From Akkermansia muciniphila (lineage in GTDB: Bacteria > Verrucomicrobiota > Verrucomicrobiia > Verrucomicrobiales > DEV007): DNA of 64,000 bases. The notes below the pieces were generated by a model. That model was not told where the DNA came from and made no database searches. It saw only the letters and a program-made list of their open reading frames with translations. Where the stretch lies: contig CAMCXS010000018.1 of the NCBI GenBank assembly GCA_945883495.1, positions 1 to 64,000 on the forward strand, written 5' to 3'. The stretch's first letter is position 1. The number at the start of each line of letters is the position of its first letter. Below, one piece after another: positions 15,688 through 42,172 of the stretch. Both the position numbers and the translations under genes were made by a program.

Positions 15688-16620
15688 ATGAAGCGCTTTC
15701 TTGACTGGTTCAACGACCTCTATCCGGTCTGGCTCATTAGCTTGGCCATCATCGCCTTTGTCCGGCCGGAGAGCATGCTCTGGTTCGGCAAGGAATGGAT
15801 CTTTTGGGCCTTGGCGACCTCCATGTTGGGCATGGGACTGACGCTGAGCCTAGACGATTTTCGGCGCATCGGCTCCATGCCGGGCAGCGTGGCGCTCGGT
15901 TTTGCCTGCCAATACACGCTCATGCCCCTGGGCGGCTGGCTGGTGGGCAAGATACTGAAGCTTCCCACGGACATGGCGGTCGGCATCATCTTGGTGGCGA
16001 GCTGCCCAGGCGGCATGGCTTCCAACGTCATTAGCTATTTGGCCAAGGCGAATGTCGCGTTGTCGGTGGCCTTGACGCTTGCTTCGACCTTGTTGGCCTT
16101 CTTCTTCACTCCCGCGTGGACCAGCGTCCTGGCAGGCAAGCACGTGCCCGTGGATGCGATCGGGATGTGCCTTTCCGCTCTCAAACTCACCGTGGCTCCC
16201 GTCCTGCTCGGCGTCTTGATCCGTTGGACTCGCCCCAAACTAGCCGACCAGATCGGCGCCTACGGCCCCACGGTGGCCGTTCTTGCGTTCACGCTGGTCA
16301 CCGGTGGAATTGTCGCCGCGAGCGCCAAAGACATCGGCGCGAACTTTGCCCAGCTGACCCTCGCGGCCGTGCTGCTCCACCTCCTCGGCTATGCCTTAGG
16401 CTACACCGTCCCCAAGGTGCTGCGGTATCCGGAATCCTTCTGCCGCACGGTCAGCATCGAGGTGGGTATGCAGAACGGAGGTTTGGCGGCCTCCTTGGCC
16501 CGACAACATTTCCCGGCCATGCCCCTCGCCGCCGCCGCCGCCGTGTTCAGCGGAGTGCTGCAGAATCTCTTGGGAGCTCTCCTCGCGGCGTGGTGGAAGC
16601 GAAGACCGCCAAACGCCTGA
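15688..16620 (+). CDS. Bile acid:sodium symporter (BASS) family transporter
   Basis: This 310-residue integral membrane protein has about nine to ten hydrophobic segments. The family signatures are LGMGLTLSLDDF in the third segment, SCPGGMASNVISYLAKANVALS, and EVGMQNGGLAASLA. BASS proteins couple sodium to import of organic anions such as bile acids, 2-keto acids or pantothenate. The bacterial substrate here is unknown. The ATG at 15688 was chosen because the family N-terminus begins at MKRFLDW. The longer frame from 15622 adds a non-conserved leader. It follows the Gfo/Idh/MocA gene on the same strand by 106 bases, so a functional link is possible. Confidence 0.87.
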   Translation: MKRFLDWFNDLYPVWLISLAIIAFVRPESMLWFGKEWIFWALATSMLGMGLTLSLDDFRRIGSMPGSVALGFACQYTLMPLGGWLVGKILKLPTDMAVGIILVASCPGGMASNVISYLAKANVALSVALTLASTLLAFFFTPAWTSVLAGKHVPVDAIGMCLSALKLTVAPVLLGVLIRWTRPKLADQIGAYGPTVAVLAFTLVTGGIVAASAKDIGANFAQLTLAAVLLHLLGYALGYTVPKVLRYPESFCRTVSIEVGMQNGGLAASLARQHFPAMPLAAAAAVFSGVLQNLLGALLAAWWKRRPPNA

Positions 16621-16700
16621 TCCCGGATCGGTGGAGAGGGCTTTCGAGCCCTCATGCAAGCCGGTTCCACGGCTCGAAAGCCGTGGCCACGAGGGAAACC

Positions 16701-17012
16701 GCGAAAATTCTTTCGCAACGTCCCCTCACGCGTGAGTGCGCCTCCGAAAACTTGTTCGGAGGCGAGATCATCGATGAGTGCGGGTCCGAACAACTTTCGC
16801 AACGTCCACGCATCGATGAGTGCGGGTCCGAACAACTTTCGCAACGTCCGCACATCGATGAGCTCGGGTCCGAACAACTTTCGCAACGTCCGCACATCGA
16901 TGAGCGCGGCTCCGAACAACTTTCGCATCGGCGGCGCATCGATGAGTGCGGGTCCGAACAACTTTCGCAAGGCGACTTCATCGATGAGTTCACCTCCGAA
17001 ACGTTTTTCAGC
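16701..17012. repeat. 42-bp palindromic repeat array 1 (inverted orientation, one end decayed)
   Basis: Palindrome centres recur at exactly 42 bases: one terminal CTCACGCGTGAG (ACGCGT at 16728), then TCATCGATGA-type sites with ATCGAT at 16770, 16812, 16854, 16896, 16938 and 16980. Between palindromes each unit has a second imperfect hairpin of the form CCGAA-N5-TTCG. The first unit has a perfect 10-bp stem, CGCCTCCGAA pairing with TTCGGAGGCG. A hairpin GCGAAA-ATTC-TTTCGC (16701-16716) marks the left end. Relative to the other arrays it is reversed, and the expected second terminal palindrome near 17022 is not recognisable. It lies between two convergent genes. No spacers are present, so it is not a CRISPR array. 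Confidence 0.95.
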
Positions 17013-17098
17013 AGACAATCCACGGCGCGCGGAAGTGGAACGGAGAGTAACTTTTCGGCTCCCGGGCCCGCAGGTTAGCCTGGAGGTTCAACGGTGTT

Positions 17099-17205
17099 TC
17101 GATTACGAGCACGAGCACCGCTTCGCTGAGCACGAGGGTAGAAACGAAGATCTGGTGGAAGAAGACGAAGTTCGTTTTCAATCTCGTGCTCGTGCTCGTA
17201 ATCGA
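17099..17205. repeat. Long inverted repeat with perfect 20-bp arms
   Basis: TCGATTACGAGCACGAGCAC (17099-17118) is the exact reverse complement of 17186-17205. The 67 bases between are purine-rich and partly self-complementary near the base of the loop (GAAACGAA against TTCGTTTTC). The arms contain the GAGCAC hexamer twice. It sits in the convergent gap between the BASS transporter and tcdA, right of repeat array 1. The remaining 17206-17377 holds nothing I can identify. It could be a terminator or a mobile-element relic. Confidence 0.85.
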
Positions 17206-17377
17206 GTTTAAATCGGTTCATCAAAACTCCGACTCCACCAAGCTTGGTCCCGTCGCTCCCGCCCCGTAAACTGGATCGAGCTAGTCGGGAGAGGTGAACT
17301 GTCGCTTGAGGGGACTCCAATCCCGCTCGACGCGAGATTGTCCGCATCTCGCAGCGGTGGATCGCCGCGCCTCCCAC

Positions 17378-18208
17378 TCAGACACCAGTGACGATCCGGC
17401 GGATCGCTTCCGAGGCCGCTACGAAACCGAACGTTCCCGTCATGTGGGTCACCGTGCCCAGTCCGGCGTCGCAGTTGAGGCGGAGTTGACTGCCGAGCTC
17501 GACTTCCGCGCAAACCGTTCCATCGGATTGCGGATAAACGGAGTGTTCTGCGGCGAATACGGCTGGGACGCCGAACGGATGGCCCTGCCCCTGCCCCTCC
17601 AGGTCTCCGGCGGCCCAGCCATGCTCACGGCGGAGGACCTTGCGCACTTGTTTGAGCAGCGCGTCGTGGGTGGTGTGGGCCAAGTCGGCCACTCGGATCT
17701 TTGTGGGATCGCTCTTCCCACCAGCGCCCCCGCAGGTGATCACCGCTTGGCCGCGCCGATGGCATTCGTGCAGCAACAAGGCCTTATCGCGAACCGTATC
17801 GATCGCATCCACCACAACATCGCAGCCCATCGAAAGAATGTCCTCGGCCGAAGCCGAAGTAAAAAATCGCTCCACCGCCGTGACGGCACAGTGCGGAGCA
17901 ATGGCGGCTACACGTTCCGCCATGACGCCAGTCTTGGAGCGGCCGATGTTTCCGTTGAGCGCGTGGAGCTGCCGGTTCACATTGGTGACACAGACTTCGT
18001 CGAAATCCACTAACACCAGCCGCCCCACGCCGGTGCGGGCGAGCGCCTCTACCGTCCAGGATCCAACTCCACCGACGCCGATCACCATCGCTGATGCCGC
18101 CTGAAGCCGTTCCCAAGCAGCCAGACCGTAAAGCCGGCCAATTCCGCCGAAGCGGCTTTGATCATCGCGCGACCGCTCCGCTTGTGGGTCCGAAATCCGG
18201 TTTGTCAT
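17378..18208 (-). CDS. tcdA: tRNA threonylcarbamoyladenosine dehydratase (ThiF/E1-like)
   Basis: This 276-residue protein has an E1-like adenylation fold: nucleotide-binding GVGGVGSWTVEALARTG, then VDFDEVCVTNVNRQ with the conserved Asn and Arg. The order and length match TcdA/CsdL, which uses ATP to cyclise t6A to ct6A at position 37 of ANN-decoding tRNAs. The ATG at 18208 begins just before the conserved RFGGIGRLYG segment. The frame open to 18265 is longer than the family. A generic ThiF/MoeB protein is less likely because the sulfur-transfer domain is absent. Confidence 0.85.
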   Translation of the reverse strand: MTNRISDPQAERSRDDQSRFGGIGRLYGLAAWERLQAASAMVIGVGGVGSWTVEALARTGVGRLVLVDFDEVCVTNVNRQLHALNGNIGRSKTGVMAERVAAIAPHCAVTAVERFFTSASAEDILSMGCDVVVDAIDTVRDKALLLHECHRRGQAVITCGGAGGKSDPTKIRVADLAHTTHDALLKQVRKVLRREHGWAAGDLEGQGQGHPFGVPAVFAAEHSVYPQSDGTVCAEVELGSQLRLNCDAGLGTVTHMTGTFGFVAASEAIRRIVTGV

Positions 18209-28761: not shown

Positions 28762-29634
28762 TCAGGCGTGGGTGGCCAGCCAGGCTTGGAGATCGGCGAC
28801 CGACCGGAAATCCAGCAAAGCGAGGGCGAGTTCTTCCGCCTTCGCGAGCGGCAACGCCTCCACCTGGACCCGGAGCCGAGAATCCAAACCGCCGCAGACC
28901 CGCTCCAACAAGGCCAAGGTAACTTGCTCAACCCCGCGTTCGAAGCCACGTTCGATCAATTCACGTCCGGCACGGGTCTCTTCCACTGGCAGTAATTCTC
29001 CGATCATGGCTCTGATTTCCTCCGGACTTCTGGATCTGAAGCGTTGCATCAAGAATTGCACGTAGATCGCGGAAAAGCAAAGGCGGTCCTCTTCTTCCAG
29101 ACCGGCGTGGCCGCGCAAGGCGTGGTAGTCCTGAGGGGCCTTTGTTTCCACCTCCGTGTCGGAGTCCGCCACGACCGGGCGCAGGAGTGCAATGATGGGG
29201 CAATCCGGTGCCTCCCGCTCCAGCTCCGCAAGGCGCTCCCCGAGAAACGCGTGATGGATTTGCGGGAACCGGTCCGCTTCCGTCGGCAGATGGCCGCGAT
29301 CTCCAAAGAGGATAAACGCCTCGACCCGCTGCGGCACGTAATCCCGCTTCCGGCACTCCTCCACGGGATTCACCCGTCGCCACTGGGAAAGCCGGGCGAT
29401 CTCCGTGCGCGGGAAGATGGAGTGATCGTGGTAGAACTGGAACTCGCAAACCACATGGGGATCCGCCACGCCGGACGGTTCGAGCACCAGGTCACATTCC
29501 ACCTTCGGCTTGAACACTTTGGGCTGCGCGGAAGCGGCCAGCGGGAACTCCCTCCCAGCGACCAACGCCAGCCAATCCGGCCGGTGCCCAAAAATCTCCG
29601 CGAAGGCGCGATCCGTTTCCATGCGGATGGCCAT
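28762..29634 (-). CDS. Rpn-like PD-(D/E)xK nuclease family protein
   Basis: This 290-residue protein starts METDRAFAEIFGHRPDWLALVAG and has KPKVECDLVL, then VVCEFQFYHD, compatible with a PD-(D/E)xK core of the Rpn/DUF2887 type in which E-x-Q replaces E-x-K. A C-terminal helical part (LPVEETRAGRELIERGFERG, then AEELALALLDF) is typical of these proteins, which are abundant and variable in copy number. Rpn nucleases have been linked to recombination and phage defence. A second ATG lies at 29622. A decayed copy lies at 24750-25137. Confidence 0.7.
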   Translation of the reverse strand: MAIRMETDRAFAEIFGHRPDWLALVAGREFPLAASAQPKVFKPKVECDLVLEPSGVADPHVVCEFQFYHDHSIFPRTEIARLSQWRRVNPVEECRKRDYVPQRVEAFILFGDRGHLPTEADRFPQIHHAFLGERLAELEREAPDCPIIALLRPVVADSDTEVETKAPQDYHALRGHAGLEEEDRLCFSAIYVQFLMQRFRSRSPEEIRAMIGELLPVEETRAGRELIERGFERGVEQVTLALLERVCGGLDSRLRVQVEALPLAKAEELALALLDFRSVADLQAWLATHA

Positions 29635-37165: not shown

Positions 37166-40100
37166 CTATTCTTCTTCATCCCGATCCGTTCGGCTTCGCA
37201 TCCAGTCGCGCTCATTCTTCACGATCTTTGCGTAAAGCGGCCCTAAATCGGGATCCCCCGCATATCGATGAGCGAGCCGTTCCGCCGCTTCGAGGAGCAG
37301 GTTCCAGTTGGCGTCAGGCTTCCGGCTCTTGCGCCCCCGGACTCCCGGAACGCGCGCAAGTTGGCGCTGAATCCGTTGGACGGTGGGCATCCCATGCTCC
37401 CGGGCTTTGACGAGAAGCGCTTTTGCCAGAGGTGGCGGAACGAACCGGGATTCAGGCAACACCGGACTATTCATTGCCTCGGCTAAGTGCTCCAGCGATT
37501 CCGGGCTGGAGACTCGTTCCACCATGGCGATCAGGCGGGTTTCGAGCTGTTCGCCGCAAGTGACGACAAGCTTGGAGAAAAGCTGCGATGCTCGCCAAGG
37601 CAGTCCGCACTCCGTGGAGATCCCACATTCCACTGCGGTTAGGATGTCATCGATCCGAGGATCATCGGACATCGCCGCGAAGGAAATCCGGGAGAGATCC
37701 AAAGGAATGGGACGCTTGGCGATCTGCACCCGTCGCCAGAACAACAGAAACACTTCAAACGGATAGGACTTCGCGAGTTGGTGGAATCGATAAGCGATGC
37801 CGTGTCCATCCAAAGATTCGATTCGGTCCAGCTTCTGAAGCATCGAATCGATCAAATCGCCGCCGGGTAGAGATCCGCTGCGAATTGCGCACTCCATCCG
37901 CTCCAGATAGCTTTCGGCCACTTCGGGAAACTGTTCGACGGGCAAACGCGCAAGCAATTCCCAATCGCGAGCTACCAAGTGTTCCTGATTGAGCCACCCA
38001 AAATAGAGGAAGGTTCGAAGCAGCGGCAAAAGGGGAATGCCCGCCACGAGGAGCAACTGATCCCACGCAGTATCGGGAAGAGATCCTGTTTCCCGGCGCC
38101 AATAGGCAAATCCGTCAATTGCGCCTTCCTTGAGTTCGATCACGTCCGAGGCCAACGCGCTTTGCAACAGCTCGATCCGGGCATCAACCGACGTCGCCGG
38201 GACAACCAAGATCCCAATATTGCGGCCAAGCACAGTGTCTCCCGTCTCGATGAGACCTTGCGCCAGTTCGATCGCGGTTGCGGGAAATCGCTCAGCGATG
38301 ACGTGGAACAGCGGCCGGAGGTTCGGATGAAACCCGGTGGGAAAAACGGTGTCGTGCCAATCTGAAAGGTAGCACCGCAGTTCTTCCGCCGCCGGAAACC
38401 TCTCGATCAATTCGTTGGCCACCTCATCCAAGAACTCGCGCCACGAAGCCTCTCGTTCTGGTTCTTCGAATTCCTCAGCCCCGACGCTCAACGTCGCCCG
38501 GCAAAGGCGAACCTCCAGCGTGTCGGGAACTTCCCGCAGCATTTCCTCGCACTCGCTTCGCAAGGTCGCGAGCACCTGAGGGCCAAGTCGATTGCGCAAG
38601 AAGCGTCGTACCCGGAACAACACCACCGGCTGAATCTCCGCCCCAAGGAACTGACGGACCACGGCGAGCATGCCACGAGCTTCTGATTCAGCCCCTTCGC
38701 GCCAGAACCAAGTGAACGCGGCGCCTTCCAACAGATCCAAAACACCCAGCCGGAACCTCGCATCGCCCCACCGGATGAATCGTTCGCAGAGGCGCAGCAC
38801 CCGGTCTCGATAGGCCGAAGTCTTGGTAAGGCTCACGCGACGGGTCTGGAAAAACATTCTTCGTCCCAGCCATCCCGTCTCCTCCACTTCCGCGCGAAAA
38901 ACCGGGCCCAAGAGCGCTGGAATCCGGGAGACGGATTGAGAATCGCCTCCAAATGACTCGGGCGACGTGAACCGGTCTTCCATCCAGCTCAAGGCTTCGG
39001 CGGTGATCGCGACTGCTTTCTCGAACCGAAAACCGGCGATCTCACCGATGGCCTTGGCTTCACCGAGCTCCCACAACAGATCGAGACAATGGCGCACCGA
39101 ACGATCACTGATCTCGGCGGCGATTTTCAACAAATCTGGCAAAGCGCCGATCACTCGATCCGGTGTTTCCAATGCTTCGGTCCGAAACGAATCCGGCGGC
39201 GCCCCCGGCTGATCGCGCAGCTCCAGAGCCAGTTTCACCAAGCGGATCGTTCGCTCGGGCTGGAGGTGCGCGATGTTCGCCCACTCTTGAAGCTGCCTGG
39301 ATCGCTGCCAAAAACCGCTTCTCCGGAAACGCTCGGCGAACCAATGCCACGCGGGCTCCATCAGATTCCCGTCGGCTCCCAATTGCGCGGCGCGCCAATC
39401 GGCGGAGGCCACGTTTTGAACAAGCGTGGCAAACCGCTCATCCTGAAAGCACTCCAGCACCTCCTTGACGAAGCCACGGTCCCGCCCACGTGAATCACAA
39501 CAAGCGTCGTAGACCAGCTGATCCGACAAAAGGTCCGGAACAATCCGAGCCCCCGCATCCGTGGTCACGATAAGCCCCGCCTTCTCAAATGCCTCCGCGA
39601 GGTGACTGATGTCCGATGCACTCGTCCCTATCCCGGCAAACTTTGCCATCGCTTCGTAGAACGGCGCTTCCAACTTCACCGGAGCCAGCACCGCCAAAAC
39701 GCCGGCGAACTTGCGCAGCAGACCCGCGTTAAACTCCGTGGCCAGCTCCTCCAAGTCCTGGTGAAAACCGAGCTGCAAAACGCGCAACCGGAACTCATCC
39801 GTATCCCGGAAATCCCGTTCCGCCAGCTCTCCCCGCTTCAGCAACTCCGCCGCGAGAACCACAAACAGTGGCGAGTCCTTCGCCAGCCAGGTGAAGTGTC
39901 CCCGCAGCCCTGTCGTCAGGCGATCTCCGAGAGCCGCCTCCGCCAAACGCAGCGCCTCACCCGGCCGCAGCGGACCGATTGGCTTTGGTTGCGCGATTTC
40001 GGTAAGATCGAACCCAGCCTCGAGTAGCTCTCGCTGGATCGCATCCCCCGCTCCGGGCCGCAGCACGAGCACCAGATTGACTCCTTGGCGCTCCGCCACC

Positions 40101-40963
40101 AGCGGGAAAATGCGGTTCCGTATTTCGGGAAACCGATGGGCATCATCGAGCACCACCACCAACGGCCGCCCCTCCAGATCCAGTTCCTTTCCATAGTCCG
40201 CCGCCGAGCGAGGTGCGTCGGAAAGAAACCGCAACGCGTGGTCAGGATGCGATCGCTCGAACTCGCTCGCCCAGGCCAGCAAGAGTCGGCTTTTGCCAAT
40301 CCCGGCCCGCCCACGGAGCAGCAGGACGCGCTTCTTCGGCGACTCCGCGAACTCGTGCAACTCCTGGAGCAACCGGGTTCGGCCATACATCGGCAGCCGG
40401 TGGTGAAATGATCTCCCCTCCTCCAAGAGCTGGCGATACTTCGCTTCGCCCGCCATCAACGAGAAAGAGCCCGGAGCGTCAAAGAACTGCTCGGGCCAAC
40501 CCGGGCCGAAGTGTACATAAAGCAACCGAGCGGCGGTGGCGGGAAGTAGTCGAATGGAAAACTCGCGGGAAATCTTCCGGGAATCCCAAAGCTCCCAGTC
40601 AGGATGTTGGACGACGCATTCTAGCTCCCTAGTCACCAGCAAAAACTTGCGCTGCGCCGCGAAGTGACAGGCCTCGATGGCATCCCGGGTCTGCTTCGGC
40701 CCCCATTTCGCCTTCGGGTAATGCTTGCACTGAAACGCCCATGTTTCGCCTGCGTCCGTCTCTGCAATGATATCGATCCCATCCTGGCGATCTCCCTTTC
40801 GACCGTACGGCCGGGCGTTCCGGATCTTGACCTCGTTCCCGTCAGGTCCGAGCAAAACAGGCCCCGCCGCGAGGAAATCGCAGATAAAGCTCTCGAACGT
40901 CGACCAAGTAAACGCCGAGCCCTCGAACGGCAACACCGCGGATCTGGGAGAAACTGGCGGCAT
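37166..40963 (-). CDS. Mrr-type nuclease fused to a STAND-like NTPase and a long helical C-terminus
   Basis: This 1265-residue protein has three parts. Residues about 20-110 are a restriction-endonuclease (Mrr-like) domain with DGID (61-64) and QCK (78-80), the D-QxK active site. Residues about 190-500 are a P-loop NTPase with Walker A GRAGIGKS (218-225) and Walker B VVVLDDAHRF (about 267-277). The remaining 750 residues are helical and repeat-like, with no catalytic motif. Nuclease-NTPase-sensor order is the plan of Avs-type antiviral STAND proteins, so phage sensing followed by DNA cleavage is a reasonable inference. TTG at 40993 is an alternative start. It is divergent from the AAA+/DUF4143 gene. 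Confidence 0.75.
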   Translation of the reverse strand: MPPVSPRSAVLPFEGSAFTWSTFESFICDFLAAGPVLLGPDGNEVKIRNARPYGRKGDRQDGIDIIAETDAGETWAFQCKHYPKAKWGPKQTRDAIEACHFAAQRKFLLVTRELECVVQHPDWELWDSRKISREFSIRLLPATAARLLYVHFGPGWPEQFFDAPGSFSLMAGEAKYRQLLEEGRSFHHRLPMYGRTRLLQELHEFAESPKKRVLLLRGRAGIGKSRLLLAWASEFERSHPDHALRFLSDAPRSAADYGKELDLEGRPLVVVLDDAHRFPEIRNRIFPLVAERQGVNLVLVLRPGAGDAIQRELLEAGFDLTEIAQPKPIGPLRPGEALRLAEAALGDRLTTGLRGHFTWLAKDSPLFVVLAAELLKRGELAERDFRDTDEFRLRVLQLGFHQDLEELATEFNAGLLRKFAGVLAVLAPVKLEAPFYEAMAKFAGIGTSASDISHLAEAFEKAGLIVTTDAGARIVPDLLSDQLVYDACCDSRGRDRGFVKEVLECFQDERFATLVQNVASADWRAAQLGADGNLMEPAWHWFAERFRRSGFWQRSRQLQEWANIAHLQPERTIRLVKLALELRDQPGAPPDSFRTEALETPDRVIGALPDLLKIAAEISDRSVRHCLDLLWELGEAKAIGEIAGFRFEKAVAITAEALSWMEDRFTSPESFGGDSQSVSRIPALLGPVFRAEVEETGWLGRRMFFQTRRVSLTKTSAYRDRVLRLCERFIRWGDARFRLGVLDLLEGAAFTWFWREGAESEARGMLAVVRQFLGAEIQPVVLFRVRRFLRNRLGPQVLATLRSECEEMLREVPDTLEVRLCRATLSVGAEEFEEPEREASWREFLDEVANELIERFPAAEELRCYLSDWHDTVFPTGFHPNLRPLFHVIAERFPATAIELAQGLIETGDTVLGRNIGILVVPATSVDARIELLQSALASDVIELKEGAIDGFAYWRRETGSLPDTAWDQLLLVAGIPLLPLLRTFLYFGWLNQEHLVARDWELLARLPVEQFPEVAESYLERMECAIRSGSLPGGDLIDSMLQKLDRIESLDGHGIAYRFHQLAKSYPFEVFLLFWRRVQIAKRPIPLDLSRISFAAMSDDPRIDDILTAVECGISTECGLPWRASQLFSKLVVTCGEQLETRLIAMVERVSSPESLEHLAEAMNSPVLPESRFVPPPLAKALLVKAREHGMPTVQRIQRQLARVPGVRGRKSRKPDANWNLLLEAAERLAHRYAGDPDLGPLYAKIVKNERDWMRSRTDRDEEE

Positions 40964-41005
40964 ATCCTTGAAAAAATAGGATGACGCTCCCAATCTTTCA
41001 AGGAC

Positions 41006-42172
41006 ATGGATGCATTTCTTCCGCGAACAACGTTGATGGACGCTGTGGAAGCCTCATTGCGCCGCAATCCGGTCACCGCCTTGCTCGGTCCACGCCAAGT
41101 CGGCAAATCGACCCTCGCCCGCCTCTTCGCGGATCGCCCCGAGAATCGCTTTGATCTGGAGAACCCAATCGACTTGGCCCGTTTGGCCCCAGACTCCTAC
41201 GGACTGCTGTCCAGCCTCCAGGGCGTGGTCGTGATCGACGAAATCCAGCAAGCTCCAGAACTCTTCCCGCAACTGCGCGTGATCGTTGATGAGCCGACCT
41301 GTCGCTGTCGATTCCTCGTGACTGGCAGCGCCTCACCCGCTCTCACCAACCACACCGCGGAAACCTTGGCGGGTCGCGTGCGCCTCATCGAGATCGGGGG
41401 ATTTGATCTCCAGGAAACGGGCGGGGATCGTTGGGAAGAATTGTGGTTCCGTGGCGGCTTCCCCCGGGCGTTCTTGGCGGCCAACGACCGGGATGCCCAC
41501 GACTGGTTGGACGACTTCCTCAAAACCTACGTGATGCGCGACGTCCAGGCCTTGGCGGGAGGAGGCTTGAGCCCGCAAACCCTGGCCCGGCTCCTCCTCA
41601 TGCTCGCCCACTACCACGGTCAGTTCTGGAATCAGAAGGAGGTGGCAGCCGCTCTGGGAATCGATACCAAGACGTTGCAGCGCTATCTTGATGTCTTCGT
41701 GGGGGCCTATTTGATCCGGATGTTGCCGCCTTTCGAGAAGAACATCGGCAAGCGCATCCGCAAGGCGCACCGGCTTTACTTCCGGGACTCAGGCTTGCTT
41801 CATCGATTGTTCCGGATCGGAGGGATCGCCACCCTCCGCAGCCACGACCGGCTCGGCGCCTCATGGGAAGGGTTCGCCATTGAACAGCTGACACGCCTCC
41901 TGGGCGCCTCAGAGCACTGTTTCTTTTGGCGGACCCATGCAGGCTCGGAAATCGACCTCGTGGTGCCGCAAGGAGATCGCGTCCTTGGTTTCGAGTTTAA
42001 GGTGTCCTCGGCTCCAACGATCAGCAAGGGCACGCACGAAGCGATGCGAGACCTTGGAATCCAGGAACTCTACGTCATCCACTCCGGCCCGAATGAGTTT
42101 CGCCTGGGTGAAGCGATACGCGCCGTGCCAATCAGGGGCCTGGCCAAGCTGGTCGAAGAGCTGCTGCGGTAG
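41006..42172 (+). CDS. AAA+ ATPase with C-terminal DUF4143 domain
   Basis: This 388-residue protein has Walker A LLGPRQVGKST (about 26-36), Walker B VVVIDEIQQAPELF, and a sensor segment FLVTGSASP. The C-terminal DUF4143 domain has a PD-(D/E)xK-like pattern GSEIDLVVPQG...FEFKVSS. Proteins of this type are very common in bacteria and archaea, often in accessory regions. Their biological role is unresolved. The start ATG is 42 bases from the start of the nuclease-NTPase gene on the other strand, so the two may share a promoter region. It is convergent with argF. Confidence 0.85.
   Translation: MDAFLPRTTLMDAVEASLRRNPVTALLGPRQVGKSTLARLFADRPENRFDLENPIDLARLAPDSYGLLSSLQGVVVIDEIQQAPELFPQLRVIVDEPTCRCRFLVTGSASPALTNHTAETLAGRVRLIEIGGFDLQETGGDRWEELWFRGGFPRAFLAANDRDAHDWLDDFLKTYVMRDVQALAGGGLSPQTLARLLLMLAHYHGQFWNQKEVAAALGIDTKTLQRYLDVFVGAYLIRMLPPFEKNIGKRIRKAHRLYFRDSGLLHRLFRIGGIATLRSHDRLGASWEGFAIEQLTRLLGASEHCFFWRTHAGSEIDLVVPQGDRVLGFEFKVSSAPTISKGTHEAMRDLGIQELYVIHSGPNEFRLGEAIRAVPIRGLAKLVEELLR

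Follow-up and report, generated by a model that had tools for sequence, protein, structure and literature searches.

The 64,000-nucleotide window analysed in this study (positions 1 to 64,000 of contig CAMCXS010000018.1, Akkermansia muciniphila assembly GCA_945883495.1) contains two divergent genes whose start codons lie 42 bp apart. The gene on the minus strand encodes a protein in which a predicted Mrr-type nuclease, a STAND NTPase and a long helical C-terminal part follow one another, and the gene on the plus strand encodes an AAA_14 ATPase with a C-terminal DUF4143 domain (Table 1). The open reading frame of the STAND gene runs intact from the ATG at 40963 to the stop at 37166. This start is backed by the 38%-identical relative L018, which begins at the equivalent point, by a sigma70-like promoter (41001-40973) that lies downstream of, or overlaps, the alternative TTG start at 40993, and by the divergent neighbour gene, which begins at 41006.

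Table 1. Positions of the features of the two-gene locus in the window.
Feature	Position	Strand	Basis or detail
Mrr-STAND-helical sensor gene	37166..40963	-	1265 aa, ATG start; Pfam, model and relative L018
Mrr-type nuclease domain (predicted), residues 1-165	40469..40963	-	Pfam, invariant motif, model
Nuclease site codons	E24 40892-40894; D64 40772-40774; Q78 40730-40732; K80 40724-40726	-	
STAND NTPase core, residues 170-330	39974..40456	-	Pfam nSTAND_NTPase5 and AAA_16, fold matches
P-loop GRAGIGKSR	40286-40312	-	
Walker B region VLDDAHR	about 40133-40156	-	
Sensor R302-P303, within the STAND NTPase core		-	
Helical lid and winged helix, residues 331-500	39464..39973	-	Conservation, model, NLR alignment
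Putative sensor, HEAT-like array, residues 501-1265	37169..39463	-	Model, fold search, divergence
Inverted repeat between start codons, TCCTTGAAAAAATAGGA-tgacgc-TCCCAATCTTTCAAGGA	40965..41004	.	p = 0.002 in window
Promoter-like site of STAND gene, inside the repeat, TTGAAA-N17-TATTTT	40973..41001	-	Promoter scan
Partner gene: AAA_14 ATPase, helix-turn-helix (HTH)-like segment and DUF4143 C-terminal nuclease-like domain	41006..42172	+	388 aa; Pfam, PADLOC PDC-S01
Partner PD-(D/E)xK-like motif, E315-x-D317 ... E330-x-K332	41948..42001	+	Invariant in 11 aligned partners

The initial annotation of this stretch had named D64, Q78 and K80 as the nuclease site and K224 as the P-loop lysine. All four assignments are correct, and among 24 aligned relatives that carry Mrr the columns without variation include E24, G57, G62, D64, Q78, C79, K80, G221, G223, K224, D274, R302 and P303. 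E24 completes, with D64, Q78 and K80, the E...D...QxK active site of Mrr-type PD-(D/E)xK nucleases. Residues 59-84 match Mrr_cat_2 of Pfam just above the cut-off (22.5 bits versus 22), and relative L036 matches Mrr_cat with 41 bits. Pfam and motif conservation thus identify residues 1-165 as a predicted Mrr-type nuclease, a part of the chain that the fold search barely probes. Residues 197-310 match nSTAND_NTPase5 (PF25199) near its threshold, with 32.9 bits versus a cut-off of 34 in the whole-protein search and 37.5 bits, above the cut-off, in the six-frame search of the whole genome; the relatives score 20.9-37.4 bits. As a finder of further family members the same profile was uninformative, giving weak matches in every genome and every control. 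The P-loop, Walker B, arginine sensor and AAA+-type core that mark STAND and NLR-like NTPases are all present, followed by the helical lid and the winged helix. A conserved R473-x-x-P476-D477-L-L-x-D481 follows a beta hairpin in the lid and winged-helix part and appears to be positioned like the MHD motif of NB-ARC proteins.

Structure prediction supports the same layout. The model of residues 1-500 (pLDDT 88) has the nuclease elements in the expected order, and the model of residues 170-1265 (pLDDT 85) is nearly all alpha-helical from residue 501 to the end, except for a short beta hairpin near 692-709. The initial annotation had described an intact nuclease, an intact P-loop NTPase and a long helical part, and the last of these corresponds to about 765 mostly helical modelled residues. 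A Foldseek search with the N-terminal half returned first EfAvs5 (9jap) and Avs4 (8dgf, E 5.6e-9), then archaeal ATPases, ORC, plant NLRs and Apaf-1. VIA-align of residues 139-500 gave NLRP9 (Z 17.6), NLRC4 (16.9), NLRP3 (16.6), NOD2 (16.4) and Apaf-1 (16.3); Z was 15-17.6 overall, and the alignment to NLRs covers residues 170-500, the NTPase, lid and winged helix. For residues 170-1265 the best match was Avs4 (E 1.3e-9), with CAND1, importins and further HEAT arrays next. A phmmer search of the PDB with the single protein gave no useful match. The predicted fold thus places the NTPase in the STAND class and the C-terminal part among helical-repeat-like arrays, the outcome anticipated for both in the initial annotation. 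Its proposal of an Avs-like order of effector, NTPase and sensor is likewise borne out by Pfam, the models and the appearance of Avs4 and Avs5 as top fold matches.

Relatives of the STAND protein have a patchy distribution. An alignment query of species genomes retrieved 29 loci, where a scan with the single protein had found none. Matches occur in seven of the 75 genomes of the taxonomic family, one of which (G004) has only a short C-terminal fragment, and in three of 387 genomes of the phylum. The relatives occur in, among others, Verrucomicrobiota, Actinomycetota, Chloroflexota, Patescibacteria (Ca. Shapirobacteria), an alphaproteobacterial metagenome-assembled genome (MAG) and Methanosarcina, and one viral-collection contig also holds a relative. 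The source genome itself carries a second complete two-gene module, L017 (C19:12382-16377, minus strand, with its partner at 16411-17574, plus strand), whose STAND protein is about 32% identical to the window copy and has nearer copies in other genera. A full module is also found at L032:6501-11701, on a contig that carries the label Akkermansia muciniphila MAG; strains of Akkermansia, a gut bacterium, are available in culture. The fragment of G004 (L008, C89:4747-4881) comprises only the last 45 sensor residues inside a 246-aa open frame, and may be a relic, or the conserved C-terminal tail put to an independent use.

Comparison of the relatives revealed that the effector is exchanged on a constant core. 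In a Methanosarcina MAG (L033:713-5050) SIR2_2 replaces Mrr (E 8.7e-15) ahead of the same STAND core and HEAT-like array, L036 and L048 have an extra HTH_3 ahead of Mrr, and L044 and L047 are without the Mrr motif. Identity between the window protein and L018 is 57% in the Mrr domain and 42-46% in the NTPase and winged helix, declines in the helical array from 33 to 30 to 20%, and recovers to 48% over the final 65 residues. Residues 761-1200 diverge fastest and the last 65 residues are conserved, and most other pairs have a similar pattern. Such a profile is what would be expected of a conserved effector and switch joined to a fast-changing sensor, and falls short of proving positive selection.

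The partner gene matches AAA_14 (75.5 bits) and DUF4143 (127.5 bits) of Pfam and PDC-S01 of PADLOC (E 1.7e-84). Among the 11 aligned partners the Walker B pair D78-E79 is invariant and the P-loop nearly so. Residues 195-229 form an HTH-like segment, which Pfam HTH models match under the cut-off (E 0.01-0.03). The head-to-head pair is present at 12 of 14 assessable verrucomicrobial loci (the window, L017, L018, L020, L021, L029, L030, L031, L032, L035, L085 and L086; L022 ends at a contig edge and L039 reads in two frames), and both DUF4143 genes of the source genome, its only two, sit in such pairs. Outside Verrucomicrobiota the partner was found next to none of the STAND relatives. The description of effector, NTPase and sensor as standing in one chain is incomplete: in Verrucomicrobiota that protein is half of a co-inherited divergent gene pair. 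The partner gene, the inverted repeat and the second copy on another contig went unmentioned in the initial annotation. Some tblastn matches of L029 to partner genes proved to be an artefact of its over-extended reading frame.

Phylogenetic analysis supports the co-inheritance of the two genes. In a tree that also included the other AAA_14-DUF4143 copies carried by their genomes and by one genome of the same genus, a branch with support 100/99 sets the STAND-associated partners apart, and the clade is kept (100/95) when 27 further best matches of the phylum are added. The STAND tree groups all verrucomicrobial members on one branch (100/100), in the order (window, L018), L032, (L021,(L017,L020)), (L085, L086, L035, (L029, L030, L031)), and agrees with the partner tree at its principal forks. 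On these trees the simplest history would be a single gain of the partner gene at the root of the verrucomicrobial clade, followed by a few losses of either gene. AAA_14-DUF4143 genes are themselves very abundant, with strong matches in 97 of 387 genomes, mostly without a STAND gene, and this abundance could suggest a housekeeping or mobile-element role unrelated to phage (for instance plasmid or transposon control) in which the partner is a selfish neighbour. We regard such a role as highly improbable, since a supported partner clade with a tree matching that of the STAND proteins is not expected from selfish insertion, and the patchiness, the fast-evolving sensor and the effector swaps fit conflict.

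The short space between the two start codons has a structure of its own. In the window it is filled by a near-perfect inverted repeat, and across the paired loci, where it measures some 36-65 bp, an inverted repeat is likewise seen. The repeat of L020 is perfect, with 15 bp per arm plus both start codons (GCTTGCAAAATAGAG-gtaatga-CTCTATTTTGCAAGC), and several further pairs have one that can be recognised. With start codons excluded, the combined p over nine loci is 1.3e-7; taken singly, six of ten paired loci reach p 0.05, and L018, L017, L085 and L086 miss it. The repeat does not represent a general operator of AAA_14-DUF4143 genes, because among the upstream regions of 23 other copies only three reach p 0.05, about as many as chance would give. 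The TTGAAA-N17-TATTTT site (one found versus 0.0 +/- 0.2 in shuffles) ends 9 nt before the STAND ATG, and STAND transcripts would therefore be near-leaderless. At L020 we read by eye TTGCAA-N17-TATTTT-N6-ATG on both strands, an arrangement unlisted at the threshold of the promoter scan that would constitute mirrored overlapping promoters. Two observations were made on genes without a STAND neighbour. Many unpaired AAA_14-DUF4143 genes (L095-L119) seem to have sigma70-like promoters that end within a few bases of the ATG, which would make their transcripts almost leaderless. Upstream of the orphan partner of G284 (L120:1585-1675) there is a half-repeat, CTTGCAAATTAGA, that resembles the repeat of L032 and is consistent with loss of a STAND gene.

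The repeats suggest mirrored overlapping promoters, the alternative being an operator bound by the HTH-like segment of the partner. A rival reading is a toxin-regulator pair, in which a lethal Mrr-STAND protein is checked by the AAA_14-DUF4143 protein, either by repression of the shared promoter through the HTH-like segment or by binding to the receptor, and infection or loss of the partner frees the nuclease. Tight head-to-head genes around a repeat-bearing gap, a partner with an HTH-like segment, albeit one under the cut-off, and the co-inheritance of the two genes all agree with such a pair. We nevertheless consider it rather unlikely. STAND relatives outside Verrucomicrobiota, and L019 inside the phylum, lack the partner, which therefore is not generally required to survive the nuclease; the repeat can be read as promoters instead of an operator; and the invariant ATPase and nuclease motifs of the partner suggest catalysis beyond mere repression.

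The window locus is flanked by an alpha/beta hydrolase gene and by argF-argD-argB. G074, a genome of the same genus, keeps the argB-argD-argF block in colinear order (77% DNA identity) as far as the 3' end of argF, after which the module is absent. A simple insertion beside argF was rejected: the hydrolase orthologue of G074 lies on another contig, so the site is a synteny breakpoint at which an empty site cannot be demonstrated. The base composition of the locus (GC 0.60-0.61) does not mark it as foreign in a window of 0.616. Elsewhere in the window, at 28762-29634 on the minus strand, there is a gene for a DUF4351 / DUF2887 protein, whose family is commonly encountered as an Rpn or transposase-like nuclease.

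Some distant relatives have neighbours with links to defence. L040 has HsdM on one side and an ApeA-like HEPN gene on the other, L034 lies beside PDC-S18, L036 beside an HNH-NTPase-TPR gene and L037 near a SIR2-containing gene, and on the viral-collection contig of L121 a type III Res-like helicase gene, read from sequence, is nearby. Since some relatives adjoin restriction genes, and since Mrr belongs to modification-dependent restriction, the protein could act as a Type IV-like restriction enzyme whose helical part binds modified or foreign DNA directly and whose Mrr domain cuts it, with no sensing of a phage protein. This appears quite improbable to us. The NTPase is predicted to be STAND, neither a McrB-type GTPase nor a helicase, the exchange of the nuclease for SIR2 on the same core is ill-suited to a restriction enzyme, and the helical array looks like Avs4 and like the HEAT arrays that bind proteins.

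Taken together, the data indicate that the window protein is probably an NLR/Avs-like anti-phage receptor, whose clustered Mrr domains would cleave DNA once a phage component has been detected and which, in Verrucomicrobiota, would be expressed together with the ATPase-nuclease protein as a functional partner. Pfam, the models and the fold search agree on a tripartite order of effector, NTPase and repeat sensor. Several observations weigh against this interpretation. We recognised no defence gene adjoining the window locus and no recognisable defence island around it, and the defence neighbours of the distant relatives were chosen by eye, with no background rate, so that no enrichment is claimed. 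The TM-scores to Avs proteins are low (0.31-0.33 on the query, N-terminal half) because the relative placement of the domains differs, and the likeness is consequently only at the level of domains. Against the PADLOC Avs models the window protein matched only Avs2 (E 0.063), in residues 207-228, the P-loop. Finally, the pairing is not absolute: L019 and L039 are verrucomicrobial STAND genes without an adjoining partner, and the partner clade includes two members with no STAND neighbour, that of G284 next to a purC-like gene and that of G080 next to a hemC-like gene.

We propose that at rest the helical C-terminal sensor would keep the STAND NTPase inactive. Binding of a conserved phage component to the sensor would allow ATP binding and oligomerisation of the STAND core, and the clustered N-terminal Mrr domains would then be activated and cut DNA, so that infection would be aborted, possibly with the death of the cell. 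The AAA_14-DUF4143 protein, transcribed from the same 42-bp gap, may serve as an additional nuclease or co-effector, or may hold the receptor back or license it; a co-effector or licensing role is preferred over that of an antitoxin because partner-free relatives exist and the catalytic motifs of the partner are invariant. It is possible, and we suggest it tentatively, that the Mrr-STAND protein and its dedicated AAA_14-DUF4143 protein form one two-gene system, expressed from one self-complementary bidirectional promoter and acting in one pathway. If true, this would be the first functional context for a clade of PDC-S01, and would suggest that other PDC-S01 proteins are modules of larger sensor systems. 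PDC-S01 is among the commonest candidate defence genes, we found no described mechanism for it, and the paired clade offers a testable handle. Among bacterial proteins related to the immune receptors of eukaryotes, the family adds a STAND group that swaps Mrr and SIR2, is present in bacteria and an archaeon, and has its own sensor array.

The two-gene module is in none of the catalogues searched, and we found no description of a DUF4143-STAND pair in the literature covered by our search, outside which most subscription papers lie. Assignment of the window protein to Avs1-5 was rejected, as the PADLOC Avs models fail beyond the P-loop and the best score among 24 relatives was E 0.0005, to Avs4; the initial annotation had seen no obvious match to a named Avs subgroup either. 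The best reading is an unlisted subgroup of NLR/Avs-like receptors with an NTPase nearest Pfam nSTAND5. The nuclease effectors of Avs1-4 are described as killing when terminase, portal or some other protein of a phage is detected (PMC12931631). Avs4 (8dgf) shares with the window protein the N-terminal nuclease, the STAND NTPase and the long helical C-terminal sensor, and differs in length (1541 residues in the 8dgf chain versus 1265 aa); the type of NTPase and the divergent AAA_14-DUF4143 partner also set the window protein apart. Avs5, reported to combine SIR2 with an nSTAND3 domain (PMC12931631), is the top Foldseek match of the N-terminal half (9jap) and aligns with VIA Z 15.1 over 190 NTPase residues, and the Methanosarcina relative carries SIR2 at the equivalent place, whereas the effector of the window protein is Mrr. 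Animal and plant NLRs and Apaf-1 have the same arrangement of NTPase, lid and winged helix and, apparently, the hairpin followed by an MHD-like motif; unlike them, the window protein has a nuclease effector and a HEAT-like sensor instead of leucine-rich repeats or WD40, and the sequence relationship is nearly confined to the P-loop region. PDC-S01 is reported to rank fourth in frequency among the defences of prokaryotes, and most PDCs still await experimental validation (PMC12988326). The partner gene has its AAA_14 and DUF4143 architecture and matches its profile; PDC-S01 is listed as a single-gene system, whereas the clade described here is consistently paired with a STAND nuclease.

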